Part shown: piece after piece, positions 113 through 6,859 of the stretch
How positions within the stretch are numbered: the stretch's first letter is position 1
Layout: every line of letters begins with the position of its first letter
From: Ardenticatenales bacterium
GTDB lineage: Bacteria; Chloroflexota; Anaerolineae; Epilineales; Epilineaceae
Length of the DNA: 64,000 bases
Assembly (NCBI GenBank): GCA_020853525.1
Contig: JADYYS010000030.1
Span: 1 to 64,000, forward strand
Reading direction: 5' to 3'
Program-made: the position numbers and the translations under genes
Notes under the pieces: generated by a model
Database searches by the model: none
Told to the model about the DNA's origin: nothing
Seen by the model: only the letters and a program-made list of their open reading frames with translations

Positions 113-2323
113 CTACCGGAACCCCATCGTCCGAGCGAGCTGGAGTCCGTTCGCCCGACAGCCGGGCGGGGCGATGAGCGTACCGTGCTGGCGCGCCCAC
201 TCCAGCGCCGCCTCCTGGACCGGTCCGCTCGGCGGCAGGAAGAGGCCGACGCGGGCCGCTCCCGCACCGGCCGTGCCGTCGAAGCACGAGCCCCCGCCCG
301 GATCGAACCACGCGAACGCCACGCCTTCGTCGCCGGCCTTCCGACCGGCCCCGAACACCTCGTCGCGTCGGGCACACCGCCCGTCGGCGGTAAGCGTCGA
401 GAGGTCGCACACCGGGGCGGAGACGATGCCGGCCGGGCGCGCAAAGCCCTCCGCCGGCGGCGCCCCATCGCCGAAACTCGCCAGCAAGGCGGGGTCGGCG
501 TGCAGGTGCTCCATCACGTCGCGCCAGATCGGAGCGGCGCCCGTGATCCCGAGGACGTTGCGCATCGGGTGGGAATCCTTGTTGCCGGTCCAAACGCCGA
601 CGACGACGTACGACGTCCAGCCGACGGTCAGATTGTCGCGGAAGTCGTTCGTCGTGCCGGTCTTGACCGCCGCCGGGAACGAAAGCTCGAGGGGGCTCGG
701 CCGCGGGAACGCCGGCGTGCGCGCCGCCGCGTCGCTCAACATGTCGTCGATCAGCCAGGCCGTGTCCGCCGAGACGATCTGCGAACCCTCGGCCGGATTC
801 CGCCACAGCTCGCGCCCCGTGGCCAGATCCTCGATGCGCTCGATCGCCGTCGCCGGGACGTGCCGCCCGCCGTGGCCGAACGTCCCGAGCGCACTGGCGA
901 GCTTCACGAGCGGCACCTCGCCCCCGCCCAAGGTCAAGCTGAGCCCGTAGTGCCACGGATCCGGGTCCAGCGGCAGACCGAGCGCCAGGCCGAGCGCGTG
1001 CACGGGCTCGACGCCGACCTCGGCCAACAGGTTGATCGCCGCTGCGTTCAGCGAGTTCGCCAACGCGCGCCTGAGACGCACCGGCCCGCGGTACTGGCCG
1101 TCGTAGTTCGCCGGCCGGTAGGCATCCGGGCCGGTGCCGAACCGGCTCGGCACATCCCACACGACGCTGGACGGCGACCAGCCGCTTGCCAGAGCAGCAG
1201 CGTACGTCAGCGGCTTGAAGGAACTACCGGGCTGGCGCGGCTCGGCGGCCATGTTCACCTGGCCGCCGTTCGGGTCGTCGTAACGGATCCCGCCGACCAT
1301 CGCGCGGATCTCGCCCGTGGCCGGTTCGATCGCGACGACCGCGGCGTCGCCGACGTCGTGCGCGGCCCGCAGGCTCTCGACGTGGCGCTCCGCGATGCCG
1401 CGGACATCGTCCGTGAACGCCGTGTCGATCGTCGTCACGACCCGGAACCCGCCTTGCCTGGCGCGCGCCGGACCGAGCACGCGCGCGACCTCGGAGGTGA
1501 CATAATCCACGAAGTGGCCGACAAGCCGCGGCGGCGGTGGGGGAGGGGTGACGAACGTCAGCGGCGCCTCGAACGCCCGTCGCGCCGACGAGGCATCGAT
1601 CGAGCCGACGGCGACGAGGGAATCGAGCACGGTTCGCTGGCGCGCGCGGGCTGCCGGGAGGAACGTGTCCGGATCGTAGGCGGTCGGCGCTTGCAGCAGC
1701 CCTACGAGAAACGTCGACTGCGCCAGGTCGAGATCGATCGCGTGCCGGCCGAAAAAGCGCTGCGCGGCGGCCTCGATGCCGTAGGCGCGCCGTCCGAAAT
1801 AGGCGATGTTGAGGTAGGCCTCGAGGAGCTCGGCCTTGCTGTATCGGTCATCCAGTTCGGCCGCCAGATAGGCCTCGCGCGCCTTGCGCTCGATCGACCG
1901 GTCGAAGCGCTCCGCCGGCTCGAACGCGACGAGGCGCACGAGCTGCATCGTGATCGTCGACGCGCCCGACACCGTGCCGCCGGCCGACGCGTTCTGCAGC
2001 GCCGCGCGGGCTACGGCGCGCTTGTCGATGCCGCCGTTGTGGTAGAACGTCCGATCCTCGGTGGCGATCACCGCCGCCCGCACCGACTCCGGGATGGACG
2101 ACAGCGGCACCCAGATTCGGTACCCTTCCTTCGCCAGCTCGGCGATCGGCTGCCCGTGCCGGTCGACGTACTCGACCGTCTGCGGCACGGCATGCGTCCG
2201 CACGGCGGCCAGGCGCGCTCGATGGGTCTCGATCGGCACGAGCGTGCTCTCCACACGGACCGTGCAGCCGGCGATAACCGCCGCCAAGAGGAGCGACACG
2301 ATCACTGCAGCACGAACGGGCAC
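113..2323 (-). CDS. Class A penicillin-binding protein (transglycosylase/transpeptidase, PBP1 family) with lipoprotein-type signal
   Basis: This 736-residue protein polymerises and cross-links peptidoglycan at the outer face of the membrane. The GT51 transglycosylase domain comes first, with the catalytic-glutamate motif ATEDRTFY near residue 88 and then GASTITMQLVR. The transpeptidase domain follows, with the serine motif SSFK, an SLN motif and KTGTT. The N-terminus is unusual: a hydrophobic stretch ends in VIAGC with Cys20, a lipobox, where family members normally have an uncleaved transmembrane anchor. The start is GTG with GGAGG seven bases upstream. The C-terminus carries about 90 residues rich in Cys and Gly after the transpeptidase domain. 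Enzyme family is certain; lipid anchoring is inference. Confidence 0.92.
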   Translation of the reverse strand: MPVRAAVIVSLLLAAVIAGCTVRVESTLVPIETHRARLAAVRTHAVPQTVEYVDRHGQPIAELAKEGYRIWVPLSSIPESVRAAVIATEDRTFYHNGGIDKRAVARAALQNASAGGTVSGASTITMQLVRLVAFEPAERFDRSIERKAREAYLAAELDDRYSKAELLEAYLNIAYFGRRAYGIEAAAQRFFGRHAIDLDLAQSTFLVGLLQAPTAYDPDTFLPAARARQRTVLDSLVAVGSIDASSARRAFEAPLTFVTPPPPPPRLVGHFVDYVTSEVARVLGPARARQGGFRVVTTIDTAFTDDVRGIAERHVESLRAAHDVGDAAVVAIEPATGEIRAMVGGIRYDDPNGGQVNMAAEPRQPGSSFKPLTYAAALASGWSPSSVVWDVPSRFGTGPDAYRPANYDGQYRGPVRLRRALANSLNAAAINLLAEVGVEPVHALGLALGLPLDPDPWHYGLSLTLGGGEVPLVKLASALGTFGHGGRHVPATAIERIEDLATGRELWRNPAEGSQIVSADTAWLIDDMLSDAAARTPAFPRPSPLELSFPAAVKTGTTNDFRDNLTVGWTSYVVVGVWTGNKDSHPMRNVLGITGAAPIWRDVMEHLHADPALLASFGDGAPPAEGFARPAGIVSAPVCDLSTLTADGRCARRDEVFGAGRKAGDEGVAFAWFDPGGGSCFDGTAGAGAARVGLFLPPSGPVQEAALEWARQHGTLIAPPGCRANGLQLARTMGFR

Positions 2324-2418: not shown

Positions 2419-4146
2419 TCAGCGTGCGCCAACCGACCTGCGCAACCGATCGACGTCGGCACCGATCGACGTGAGCCGATCGCCCACCGTGTCCAGCCGC
2501 GAACGCTCGGCCGCGACGAATGTGCGGTACGGCTCCAGCAGCACGTTCAGCCGGCCGTCGAATGCGGCAAGCTCGGAGTCGAACGTTTCGGTGAGGCGGG
2601 CGCGCAGCTCGGCCCGCAGTTCGGCCAGGCGCTCGCGCATCGCCAGCGCCGCTTTCCGCCGGCGATAGGGCAGCACCGCGAGGCCGATCATCCCGAGCGC
2701 GCTGCCCGCGACGATCCCGGTCGCGTCGAAGACGCTCAGCGAGACGATCGCCAGACCAAGGCCGAGCGCGCCGACCTCGAGGAGTGCGGTGTGCGCCAGC
2801 GCCTCGCGCACCGTCGACTCCAGGCGCGCCGCTTCGGCGTTTGGGTCGAACGTGGCGAGCACGGTCGCCGCCTGACGTCCGATCGTGCCGAGAAGCGCCT
2901 GACGGCGGCTGGCGAAGCCCGGCCCCGCTTCCAACGCCAGCGTCTCCAGCCGGCCGGACGTGGCCGTTTCGGCCAGGCGAGCCCGCAACGAGCGCCAGCG
3001 CTGCTCCTCCTGCTCGACGAGCCAATCGATCTCGGCGTTGATGTCGGCTGCGACGTGCGTCGGCGTCGCACCGATCACCTCGTCGTCGAACGCACGCTTG
3101 AGCGCCTCGCGGTCGAGCAGGGCCCGAACGTGCGCCAAGCGCATGTGTTCGTCCAGGAAGGATTCGCCGCGCTCGCGCAAGCCCTGGATCCGCGCGTCGA
3201 TCGTGTCCAGCCGTCCGGCGTGCTCGCGCCGAAGCGCCTGTTCGGATGCCGCTGCCTCGACGTCGATCGCGGCGAGCATCTCGCCGTCCGCTGCGAGAAC
3301 GGCCTGCCGCGCGCCGATCTCGGCCAGCGCATCGGCCGCCACCCGCTCGGCCAGGGCCAGCGGGCTGGAGAGCTTGAGACGCAAGCCTTCTTCGGCCGTC
3401 AGATGCTCGGTCAGCCAGGCATCGAACGCCGCCCAGTCGGCATCGGTCTGGCCGAGCGCGTACGCCTCGCGCGCCCGCCGCGCCGACACGGCCAGCACCG
3501 GCACGGGCTCGCCGATGAGGTTCAGGACCTGTGCGGCGACGAACGCGAGGATCTCCGCCCGCTCGGCATCGGTGCGCACGAGATCGATCTTGTTCACGAC
3601 GACGACGGTCCGGCGGCGCCAGGCGTGGATGAGCGCCATGAGGTCGCGCTCGCTCTCGGGGAACGGGCGATCGGCCGACGTCACGAACACGACGATGTCG
3701 GCCCGTGGCACGAACTCGCGCGTCAACCGCTCGTGTTCCCGCAGCACGGCGTTCGTACCGGGTGTGTCGATGATCGCCAGCTCGCGCAGGCGCGGCGCCG
3801 GAAGCGGTCGCCACAGCACGTCGCCGGCAACGCGCGCCTCCTCGGCCTCGCCGAACACGAGCCACTGCACCTCGGAGGTCGTCGGCGTGACGCCCTCCGC
3901 CAGGTAGGGTCCGCCGAGGAGCGTGTTGATCAGCGCGCTCTTGCCGGCGTTGAACTCGCCGACGACGACGACGAGCAGGAGGGAGGAGAGGTCCTCGGCC
4001 GCCTGCCGCACGCGTCGCATCCCGTCCGGCCGCTCGACCGTGCCGTCCAGGGCATCGGCGAGGTCGGCGAGGAGCGCACGGATCTCGGCAACGATCGCCG
4101 CCATGCGCGGATCGAGCCAACTCGGACCGATCGTTCGTGTCGTCAT
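2419..4146 (-). CDS. Dynamin-like large GTPase
   Basis: The 575-residue protein has a complete GTPase domain: P-loop GEFNAGKSALIN near residue 60, switch threonines in TPTTSEV, G3 DTPGTN and G4 NKID. A long helical region follows, then a hydrophobic hairpin near residues 470-510 (GLGLAIVSLSVF and GSALGMIGLAVL), and a final coiled-coil-like helix. This is the plan of bacterial dynamin-like proteins that bind or remodel membranes; the exact role is unknown. An upstream ATG exists at 4155, but it lies inside a perfect TATAAT, so the ATG at 4146 is preferred and the message would be leaderless. The gene is divergent from the membrane protein at 4227. Confidence 0.85.
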   Translation of the reverse strand: MTTRTIGPSWLDPRMAAIVAEIRALLADLADALDGTVERPDGMRRVRQAAEDLSSLLLVVVVGEFNAGKSALINTLLGGPYLAEGVTPTTSEVQWLVFGEAEEARVAGDVLWRPLPAPRLRELAIIDTPGTNAVLREHERLTREFVPRADIVVFVTSADRPFPESERDLMALIHAWRRRTVVVVNKIDLVRTDAERAEILAFVAAQVLNLIGEPVPVLAVSARRAREAYALGQTDADWAAFDAWLTEHLTAEEGLRLKLSSPLALAERVAADALAEIGARQAVLAADGEMLAAIDVEAAASEQALRREHAGRLDTIDARIQGLRERGESFLDEHMRLAHVRALLDREALKRAFDDEVIGATPTHVAADINAEIDWLVEQEEQRWRSLRARLAETATSGRLETLALEAGPGFASRRQALLGTIGRQAATVLATFDPNAEAARLESTVREALAHTALLEVGALGLGLAIVSLSVFDATGIVAGSALGMIGLAVLPYRRRKAALAMRERLAELRAELRARLTETFDSELAAFDGRLNVLLEPYRTFVAAERSRLDTVGDRLTSIGADVDRLRRSVGAR

Positions 4147-4159: not shown

Positions 4160-4213
4160 GGTTGGGTGTCCGTTCGCGCGGCGCCGACTTTGCCCCGACA
4201 GAGTGCAGCACGG

Positions 4214-4219
4214 TATACT
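4214..4219 (+). promoter_or_regulatory. -10 box TATACT, leaderless promoter of the 4227 gene
   Basis: TATACT is followed by seven bases and then the ATG at 4227. There is no ribosome-binding site between them, which fits a leaderless message. It faces away from the TATAAT at 4154-4159. Confidence 0.5.
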
Positions 4220-4226
4220 CGGCCGC

Positions 4227-5255
4227 ATGCAGATCGTAACGATGGCGTTGGCGGCAGCGGTGATGACCGCGCTGGCCTACACCGTCCTGACCGAGCGGGC
4301 ATCGTACGCCTCCGTGCGGCGCAGGCAGTTGGACGCCTGGGCCGCGGTCGTGGCGTTCCTCTGCCTGATCTTCCTGGCGTCGGGTGGGCACGATGTGCGG
4401 CAGGCCTACGAGCGGCGCCTGGCCCTCGCACAGTCCGTCACGGCGCCCGTGATCCCGATCGGGCGGCGCGCGCCGGTGAGCCTTCGGACGCCGTCGCCCG
4501 AGTCCGTCGCCCGGCCGGACGGCGCGGTGCGGCGGGCCGAGTCCGCTGCCGCGTCCGGCGCCGCCGAGGCTCTGCCGGTCGCCCCGGACGCGCCGTCCGA
4601 GGCGCCGCGTCCGGCCGCCTCGGACCCGGAACGCCAGCCGGTCGACGGCCTGCGTGCCGGCGACGCGCTTGTCAGCGCGGTCGGCGACGAGCCCGTGCTC
4701 GTGGTCATCGGCACGGAGGCGCCGCCCGAGGCAACCGCCGTCCTCGCCGTCCCGACCGCGGTCCGGCGCTATGCCGTCGACCCACCGCCGCTCATCGTGC
4801 CGACGCTGCGCGCACCGACGGCGCCGCCGAGCATGCCGCAGCCGCTGCCGCCGGCCACGCCGACCGCGACCGCGACCCCGGAGTGCGGCAGCCCCGACGA
4901 CATCGAGCTCGCGCTTTCGATCCGCGACGCGCGCGCGGACCGCAGCGACGGCGACCTCGTCGTACGATACCGCGTGGAAGTCGGCAACGGCGCCGGATTC
5001 CCGGTCACGCTGGCGAACATCAACGTGACGGCCCTCAACTCGGCCGGCGGCAGCGAAACCTACGGCCACGCCACCCGGCCGGACACGACGGTCGGCGCCG
5101 GCGCGTCGGTCGTCCTCGAGGGCGGGCTGCGGCTCGACCGCAGCCCGGGCCCGTTCGGGCGCACCGAACTCTGCATCTCGCTCACCGGCGACACGTGCGG
5201 GCGGCGGAGCCGCTATGAGGCATTCCGTCGCTGCAGCACGGTGAACGGGTTCTGA
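4227..5255 (+). CDS. Unknown membrane-anchored protein with Pro/Ala-rich linker and C-terminal beta domain
   Basis: I do not recognise this 342-residue protein. It starts with two hydrophobic segments (about residues 4-18 and 43-54), then a linker of roughly 180 residues rich in Ala, Pro, Arg and Val. The last 115 residues alternate in a beta-sandwich-like pattern and hold four cysteines (CGSPDD, ELCIS, DTCGR, RRCST), which would suit an extracellular domain with disulfides. The layout is a membrane anchor, flexible stalk and outer domain. An in-frame GTG at 4203 lies upstream of the TATACT box and is rejected for that reason. Confidence 0.7.
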   Translation: MQIVTMALAAAVMTALAYTVLTERASYASVRRRQLDAWAAVVAFLCLIFLASGGHDVRQAYERRLALAQSVTAPVIPIGRRAPVSLRTPSPESVARPDGAVRRAESAAASGAAEALPVAPDAPSEAPRPAASDPERQPVDGLRAGDALVSAVGDEPVLVVIGTEAPPEATAVLAVPTAVRRYAVDPPPLIVPTLRAPTAPPSMPQPLPPATPTATATPECGSPDDIELALSIRDARADRSDGDLVVRYRVEVGNGAGFPVTLANINVTALNSAGGSETYGHATRPDTTVGAGASVVLEGGLRLDRSPGPFGRTELCISLTGDTCGRRSRYEAFRRCSTVNGF

Positions 5256-5310: not shown

Positions 5311-5330
5311 GGCGGGCCTATCCGCCCGCC
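5311..5330. terminator. GC-rich inverted repeat between convergent genes
   Basis: GGCGGGC and GCCCGCC form a 7-bp stem with a 6-base loop that contains the stop codon of the minus-strand gene. It sits between two converging genes and may terminate both. There is no T-run. Confidence 0.35.
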
Positions 5331-6334
5331 GTCCCGGCGTCGTCGTCCGTAGCGAAGTCCTCCATCCGGCTGTCGACGTCCGATCCGACCGCGCGCGCCA
5401 CCATGTCGCGCAGCGTCGCTCCACGGCCGTCCGCCGCGAACGCCGACGCGTCCCGCGCATCCACGCCGTGGACCGCTGCGTCCACGACGTCCTGCGGGTC
5501 GAGCGGGCCGAACGCCGCCGCAAAGCGCGTGATGTCGCTCGGTCGGACGCCGTGGATCGCCATCGCGACCACGTCCCGGGGCCGAACGGCCGAGACGTGC
5601 GCCGCCGCTGCGGCGACGAGCTCGGGACTCGCGTCGTGAATCGTCAGGTCGAGCAGATCGCGCGGCCGGAGCTGCTCCCCGAACGTGTCGCGCAGCGGGC
5701 CGATGTCGGCCGGGTCCACGCCGTGATCGGCGAAAGCCACGATCTCGCGCGCCTCGATCGTGGGCCAAGCCTGACGAAGGGCGGACGCCAGCGTCGGCCC
5801 GACGCCGTGGTCCGTGAACCGGACGAGATCGTCGATCTCGAGCTCGGGCAGCAGCCGTCGGAGCTCGCCCGCGTGGGCGGGACGGACGCCGTGGTCGACC
5901 AGGCGCACGAGATCGCGCACCGCCACGCCGCGCACGCCGGCCGCGGCGTAGGCCTCGATGCGCTCGGGCGTGACGCCGTGATGTCGGAGCGCGTCGAGCT
6001 CGCGATCCGCGTCGACCGCAAGGCCGATGGACGAGAGCGCCGCACGCAGCTCGCTCGAGCGGATGTCCCAGCCCGGCTCGAAACGCGCCGTCCGGTCGCG
6101 TTTGGGGGCCGGCGGGACGGGCGGAACGGGCGGAGTCGGAGCCGTCGCCATCCGCGGCGGCGCCGGGGGTGCGGCGGGCCGCGGATCGTCCGATGCATCA
6201 GCCGGGGCGGTGGGCACCGCATCCGCGCCAGGCGCCGTCCGGCCGGCGATCGCCGCCAGTCGCCGTGCCGCCTCGTCGACGTCGATCTCGCCCTGCGCGA
6301 GGCTCTCCAACACCTGCAACACGTTGCTCGCCAT
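5318..6334 (-). CDS. HGV-repeat protein with N-terminal SHOCT-like helix pair
   Basis: Residues 1-30 (ESLAQGEIDVDEAARRL) match the short helix-turn-helix element seen at the end of DUF2089 proteins. A Pro/Ala-rich linker runs to about residue 85. From about residue 111 to 308 there are seven tandem repeats of 28-29 residues; most carry the core [RD]-D/E-[LIV]-V-x4-HGV-x-P. Repeat five reads HDASP instead of HGVxP. The repeats are predicted helical and probably form a solenoid. The tail is acidic. No enzyme motif or membrane segment is seen. The neighbour upstream on the same strand is the DUF2089 regulator, 51 bases away, which has the same helix pair at its own C-terminus. A functional link is inference. 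GAAGGA precedes the ATG. Confidence 0.75.
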   Translation of the reverse strand: MASNVLQVLESLAQGEIDVDEAARRLAAIAGRTAPGADAVPTAPADASDDPRPAAPPAPPRMATAPTPPVPPVPPAPKRDRTARFEPGWDIRSSELRAALSSIGLAVDADRELDALRHHGVTPERIEAYAAAGVRGVAVRDLVRLVDHGVRPAHAGELRRLLPELEIDDLVRFTDHGVGPTLASALRQAWPTIEAREIVAFADHGVDPADIGPLRDTFGEQLRPRDLLDLTIHDASPELVAAAAAHVSAVRPRDVVAMAIHGVRPSDITRFAAAFGPLDPQDVVDAAVHGVDARDASAFAADGRGATLRDMVARAVGSDVDSRMEDFATDDDAGTAGG

Positions 6335-6385
6335 CGTCCTTCGCTCCTTCGTGCGAACCTGCTCGGCTCGTCGGATGTTCGGAGC

Positions 6386-6769
6386 TCAACCCTCGCGCGA
6401 CCCGCTGCCGCCCTCCGCGAGCCACCGCTCGGCGTCCGCCGCCGTCAGCTCCCCGCGCGCGACCGCCTCCAGGACGTCGCGCTGGCGGTCCGGGGGCGGC
6501 GCGGCTGCGCCGAGGCCGAGGCGATCGATCACCTCGCCGAGCCGGCCGCGGATCGTCCAGTAGCCGAGGCCGGTCTCGCGCTCCATCTCCTTGACGTTGC
6601 CGCGGCTGGCGACGAACAGCGCTACGAAGCGGATGTCCTCGGGCGAGAGCTGACAGAACGTGCAGCCCTCGTAGCGGCCGCGAACGGTCGTCTCGCAGGA
6701 CGGGCAGTGCAGCTCGGTGACTTCGATCCGCCCCTGGCACGTCGGACAGCACTCGAGGATCTTGCGCAC
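6386..6769 (-). CDS. DUF2089 family zinc-ribbon / helix-turn-helix regulator
   Basis: The protein has about 127 residues. CPTC and CPSC (plus a later FCQL) make a zinc ribbon, followed by a DNA-binding segment (LSPEDIRFVALFVASRGNVK, then MERETGLGYWTIRGRL) and a C-terminal SHOCT-like helix pair (LEAVARGELTAADAERWL). This order is that of the DUF2089 family. I place the start at the GTG at 6769, because AAGGAG lies eight bases upstream of it. The in-frame GTG at 6778 overlaps that AAGGAG and is less likely. It probably forms a minus-strand unit with the pterin dehydratase upstream and the HGV-repeat gene downstream. Confidence 0.85.
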   Translation of the reverse strand: MRKILECCPTCQGRIEVTELHCPSCETTVRGRYEGCTFCQLSPEDIRFVALFVASRGNVKEMERETGLGYWTIRGRLGEVIDRLGLGAAAPPPDRQRDVLEAVARGELTAADAERWLAEGGSGSREG

Positions 6770-6859
6770 GGGTTCCACTCCTTGTGCGAACGATAGTCTT
6801 TATTGGCGCGTGCTGCAACGCCCAATGTATATCGCACGCCTGAAACGCTCTGAGTTTGG

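Follow-up and report, generated by a model that had tools for sequence, protein, structure and literature searches.

The window, by which we mean the whole stretch of 64,000 nucleotides analysed, carries two adjacent genes on the minus strand, one for a protein with tandem HGV repeats (P0001) and one for a DUF2089 regulator (P0002), with the following features:

5318..6334, minus strand: P0001, HGV-repeat protein with a predicted α-solenoid, 338 aa, ATG at 6334
6242..6322, minus strand: N-terminal SHOCT-like helix pair, P0001 aa 5-31 (PF22746, E 6e-5; helices 2-13 and 19-29, pLDDT >90)
6080..6238, minus strand: proline-rich linker, predicted disordered, P0001 about aa 33-85 (pLDDT mostly 39-58)
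5342..6058, minus strand: predicted α-solenoid of 28-29-residue HGV repeats, helices between P0001 aa 93 and 331 (periodicity; pLDDT about 96 over most)
6386..6769, minus strand: DUF2089 regulator with zinc ribbon, HTH and C-terminal SHOCT-like element (PF22747, PF09862, weak PF22746; mechanical start 6778)
6423..6482, minus strand: C-terminal SHOCT-like helix pair of the DUF2089 regulator (weak PF22746, aa 100-118; aligned with homologues)
6790..6818, minus strand: promoter-like site TTGCAG-N17-TATCGT upstream of the DUF2089 gene, in the place of operator-bearing promoters in homologues

Genes for a class A penicillin-binding protein (113-2323, minus strand) and a dynamin-like GTPase (2419-4146, minus strand) lie near the pair, and penicillin-binding-protein-like genes are also found upstream of the pair in two relatives (G588 and G646). 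A 350-aa open reading frame (4203-5255, plus strand), convergent with the repeat gene, has hydrophobic N-terminal stretches and no Pfam match.

P0001 contains seven repeats of 28-29 residues, six of them with an exact HGV and one with HDA, followed by a partial eighth (ATLRDMVARAV). This regularity is well beyond what shuffled sequences produce: at lag 28 the protein has an autocorrelation of +0.43 BLOSUM62 units per residue, against a best value of -0.19 at any lag of 20-40 in 2,000 shuffles, and six HGV motifs were seen in 0 of 20,000 shuffles. The same 28-29-residue spacing is found in 18 of the 20 repeat proteins, the motif of the other two being too degenerate for measurement. Residues 5-31 of P0001 match PF22746 (SHOCT-like_DUF2089-C) with E 6e-5 and 22.9 bits for a cut-off of 27 bits; seven homologues score above it (29.8-34.1 bits) and the protein at L095 reaches 24.0 bits. 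The N-terminal SHOCT-like helix pair is present in every repeat protein that we read, and several homologues also have the proline-rich linker. HGV repeats probably also occur in other bacterial proteins. The repeat matched no family in Pfam or NCBIfam, a DUF4097 (Toastrack) match was absent from P0001, PADLOC gave no result, and our literature searches found no paper on the HGVTPE motif or on M56/BlaR1 repeats. The α-solenoid repeat family of P0001 is unnamed and outside the coverage of both domain databases.

The neighbouring regulator matches the PF22747 zinc ribbon (E 6.6e-12, 45.7 bits, cut-off 27.6) and the PF09862 HTH (E 1e-16, 60.8 bits, cut-off 33.4). Its C-terminus matches PF22746 weakly (11.7 bits, E 0.2) and those of its homologues at about E 0.001, the SHOCT-like element being visible by alignment in all of them. 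Compared with the mechanical start at 6778, an in-frame GTG at 6769 agrees better with the way the family begins (MRKILE). DUF2089 has been described as a ZnR-HTH-SHOCT-like protein linked to Toastrack contexts (PMC11237479). An earlier note, made from the letters of this DNA, had described seven tandem 28-29-residue repeats, a helix pair common to both proteins and a DUF2089 neighbour with a zinc ribbon, an HTH and a SHOCT-like element ending at 6769; all of this holds, the helix pair being the named Pfam domain PF22746 and position 6769 the in-frame GTG.

An AlphaFold2 model of P0001, with homologues as the alignment, has a mean pLDDT of 84.8 and is helical throughout: a hairpin of two helices (2-13, 19-29) is followed by a disordered linker and then by the α-solenoid (93-331, about 96 for most of it). 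A homologue (G253) was predicted with the same plan and a mean pLDDT of 87.7. The solved folds closest to the solenoid are those of TAL effectors, BurrH and mTERF, in which two-helix repeats build a superhelix, as may those of P0001. The similarity amounts to Z 6-8 with rmsd mostly of 9-16 Å and no Foldseek E under 0.01, a level that helical repeats in general tend to reach. We took the profile matches with 8v2d, a designed nanocage (E 2e-6), and with alanyl-tRNA synthetase to be generic helical-repeat similarity as well. A solenoid that, like TAL effectors or mTERF, binds nucleic acid and so lends the regulator DNA specificity would suit these nearest folds, and the H followed by G/D/N/E/H in the repeat loops is superficially like repeat-variable diresidues. 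However, G, N, D and H are also ordinary helix C-cap residues, the unit has 28-29 residues compared with 33-35 in TAL effectors, and P0001 has no significant sequence or structure match to these proteins. Nucleic-acid binding is disfavoured by the acidity of the solenoids (pI 4.1-5.7 and net charge -3 to -54 across all 20). On this ground we rejected a TAL-like role as the main reading and consider it very improbable.

Searches with the repeats only, in overlapping draws of 150, 298 and 400 genomes from the class or phylum (about 650 genomes in total), found repeat proteins in 20 genomes, that of the window included. A DUF2089 gene is directly adjacent on the same strand in 20 of 20 repeat-protein loci, and in a separate, 21st locus (G274) a single MFS-type gene stands between the two. 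The order is not the same everywhere: at 11 loci in the window's class DUF2089 is directly upstream of the repeat gene, and at nine loci in other classes the repeat gene comes first with DUF2089 directly downstream. In this second lineage DUF2089 has lost its zinc cysteines and kept the HTH and the SHOCT-like element; the sequence frame of the ribbon is also kept (L122, L123, L125-L131). We regard the pair as a unit because most of the other flanking genes differ between genomes, and since the same pair recurs across Chloroflexota, the two proteins very probably work together. DUF2089 itself is common (over cut-off in 104 of 150 class genomes) and the repeat protein rare (9 of 298 genomes). 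A search of a genome contig collection with P0001 gave no match, a second contig search mostly picked up other DUF2089 partners by their SHOCT element and not by repeats, and no HGV repeats were found in plasmids, phages or viral contigs; the weaker hits of one repeat search look like noise and were set aside. At three loci of one family (f76) in another class (L126, L127 and L129), an ABC ATPase gene, accompanied at two of them by one for an ABC-2-type permease, is divergent from the pair and could be a regulatory target.

The promoters of relatives offer a view of how the pair may be controlled. In clade 1, 10 of the 12 regions upstream of the pair hold a total of 16 CAAAN4TTG sites (0.4 expected), many of which overlap the -35 hexamer or sit between -35 and -10; in clade 2, seven of the nine regions hold 11 TTGCCAT/ATGGCAA sites (0.5 expected). 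These motifs were chosen after inspection of the sequences, and some of the genomes are congeneric. For 112 other DUF2089 genes, the upstream regions show no enrichment of either motif. In the window, which is 71% GC, the promoter region of the pair holds no exact CAAAN4TTG copy. When the spaced operator doublet was searched genome-wide in ten genomes, it was found at the pair promoter in four (G646, G195, G253 and G180) with few other hits, which suggests local autoregulation, and the reversed control pattern gave no hits. The pair is thus likely to be locally autoregulated through clade-specific palindromic operators, judging from the promoters of its relatives. At two loci (L127 and L129) the stretch from promoter to repeat gene contains inverted repeats (e.g., TTGCCATAGTGATT...AATCACTATGGC), which may be an operator or an RNA hairpin. 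Gene adjacency and operator motifs at the pair promoter in relatives would also be expected if the pairing were a regulatory operon and nothing else, with DUF2089 controlling expression of a repeat protein that scaffolds elsewhere without signalling back. We think this improbable: the gene order is swapped in the second lineage and both proteins keep the same type of short tag, which goes beyond what simple co-expression needs.

The HGV-paired regulators form two groups in the DUF2089 tree, with 3 label changes compared with 18.5 after shuffling. The regulator of the window groups with HGV-paired DUF2089s of two other genomes (G117 and G072; 96/92), and the second DUF2089 of its own genome (G000:C26) groups instead with genomes of the same family (98/95). 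As the window's regulator is apart from its own paralogue, the pair represents a separate paralogous lineage. The GC content of the pair (74%) is close to that of the window (71%), and two MAGs of the same family, 81-84% complete, yielded no HGV gene. The cluster around the second DUF2089 (L001/L056) encodes two more SHOCT-bearing proteins, one with a coiled-coil-like middle.

A SHOCT-bearing neighbour is found at 97 of the 121 unique DUF2089 loci surveyed in the class. Among 53 large partners, 23 have Toastrack (DUF4097), eight pentapeptide repeats and three HGV repeats, with three chains holding both Toastrack and pentapeptide repeats. At the base of the HGV group in the tree is a DUF2089 (G008) whose partner combines SHOCT with pentapeptide repeats. 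Proteins with a SHOCT-like element and pentapeptide repeats stand beside DUF2089 at L070 (4332-5501), L190, L207, L213, L217, L219 and L237, three of them also fused to Toastrack. The α-solenoid fills the place held by the Toastrack β-helix in known DUF2089 modules and, elsewhere in the class, by pentapeptide repeats; we found no mention of it in the literature on DUF2089 and Toastrack. The pair is a variant of the DUF2089/SHOCT regulatory module with an unnamed α-solenoid family, whose function we infer as follows.

The two genes may form a two-protein regulatory module in which the state of the solenoid reaches an autoregulated DUF2089 through the SHOCT-like elements, a reading to which we give even prospects of being right. 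The DUF2089 protein would bind an operator at its own promoter and so control the pair. Its partner would carry an N-terminal SHOCT-like tag matching that of the regulator and, beyond a flexible linker, an acidic α-solenoid located in the cytoplasm, which would most likely bind a protein or other stress cue; the state of this scaffold would be passed to the regulator via the SHOCT-like elements, by direct pairing or by shared tethering. Gene pairing, domains, the predicted solenoid and the clade-specific operator motifs in relatives support the module computationally; what we infer is the autoregulation, contact through SHOCT, a role in sensing and the kind of cue. SHOCT-like elements on both members speak for the module, as does the retention of the regulator's element even where the zinc cysteines are gone. 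The earlier note had proposed that the shared element could mediate contact, with the repeat protein as a sensor or scaffold, and had named two outcomes that would speak against this: a structure prediction lacking a solenoid, or genes that do not occur together in relatives. Neither came about, since P0001 is modelled as a solenoid (at about 96 pLDDT) and the genes form a conserved pair (20 of 20 loci). With the shared element real as well, the proposal is partly supported; the two proteins may touch through that element, and the repeat protein may be a sensor or scaffold.

With respect to such contact, no coevolution signal between the two SHOCT-like elements was seen over 145 pairs, an underpowered sample (Neff 89), in which their mutual information did not exceed that of columns in the zinc ribbon or HTH. 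The one canonical SHOCT put to an experimental test proved not to homo-oligomerise (PMC3581485). Both results, together with the proposal that SHOCT-like domains act as membrane anchors (PMC11237479), would fit elements that do not pair with each other but hold the two proteins at the inner membrane or on some third partner they share, the solenoid scaffolding an envelope-stress complex and the regulator being retained or released. PspC and Toastrack proteins elsewhere in the genome, and the penicillin-binding protein and dynamin-like GTPase nearby, point in the same direction. Against this, no membrane-protein gene is conserved beside the pair, and a search of the genome, 96.9% complete, gave no PspA (PF04012), so that the pair is not a classical PSP system. 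We see tethering of this kind as rather unlikely, though to be taken seriously.

Going beyond this locus, the two-protein module could belong to a general modular signalling class in which DUF2089 is the output half and the scaffolds (Toastrack β-helix, pentapeptide β-helix and HGV α-solenoid) are interchangeable via the SHOCT-like tag; the HGV protein would then be a new cytoplasmic sensor scaffold setting the activity of an autoregulated transcription factor. We advance this tentatively, with somewhat less than even confidence. SHOCT-like domains and DUF2089 are widespread, with almost no functional work behind them, and this compact module, in which a solenoid is predicted, both members carry a matching tag and the operators are short palindromes, makes it directly testable whether the tags connect regulator to scaffold. 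The pair also draws attention to a repeat family outside Pfam and NCBIfam, and to the three kinds of repeat scaffold that occur as DUF2089 partners.

Among known systems, the DUF2089-Toastrack (DUF4097) contexts of the extended PSP/Lia envelope-stress network (PMC11237479) share with our pair a DUF2089 with zinc ribbon, HTH and SHOCT-like element, and an adjacent partner that carries a SHOCT-like element on a repeat scaffold. They differ in that the scaffold of P0001 is a predicted α-solenoid instead of a β-helix, and that its locus has no Toastrack, PspA or PspC. The HAAS-PadR systems (PMC11237479) similarly combine a small HTH regulator with Toastrack or pentapeptide repeats to which a helical signalling domain is fused, although their HTH is another one and their helical tag is HAAS, not SHOCT-like. 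Finally, SHOCT proteins (PF09851; PMC3581485) and SHOCT-like_DUF2089-C (PF22746) share with the pair a short tag of two helices, terminal in a wide range of proteins; P0001 itself scores under the Pfam cut-off for the latter, and what sets the present case apart is that the tag is carried by both members of one gene pair.
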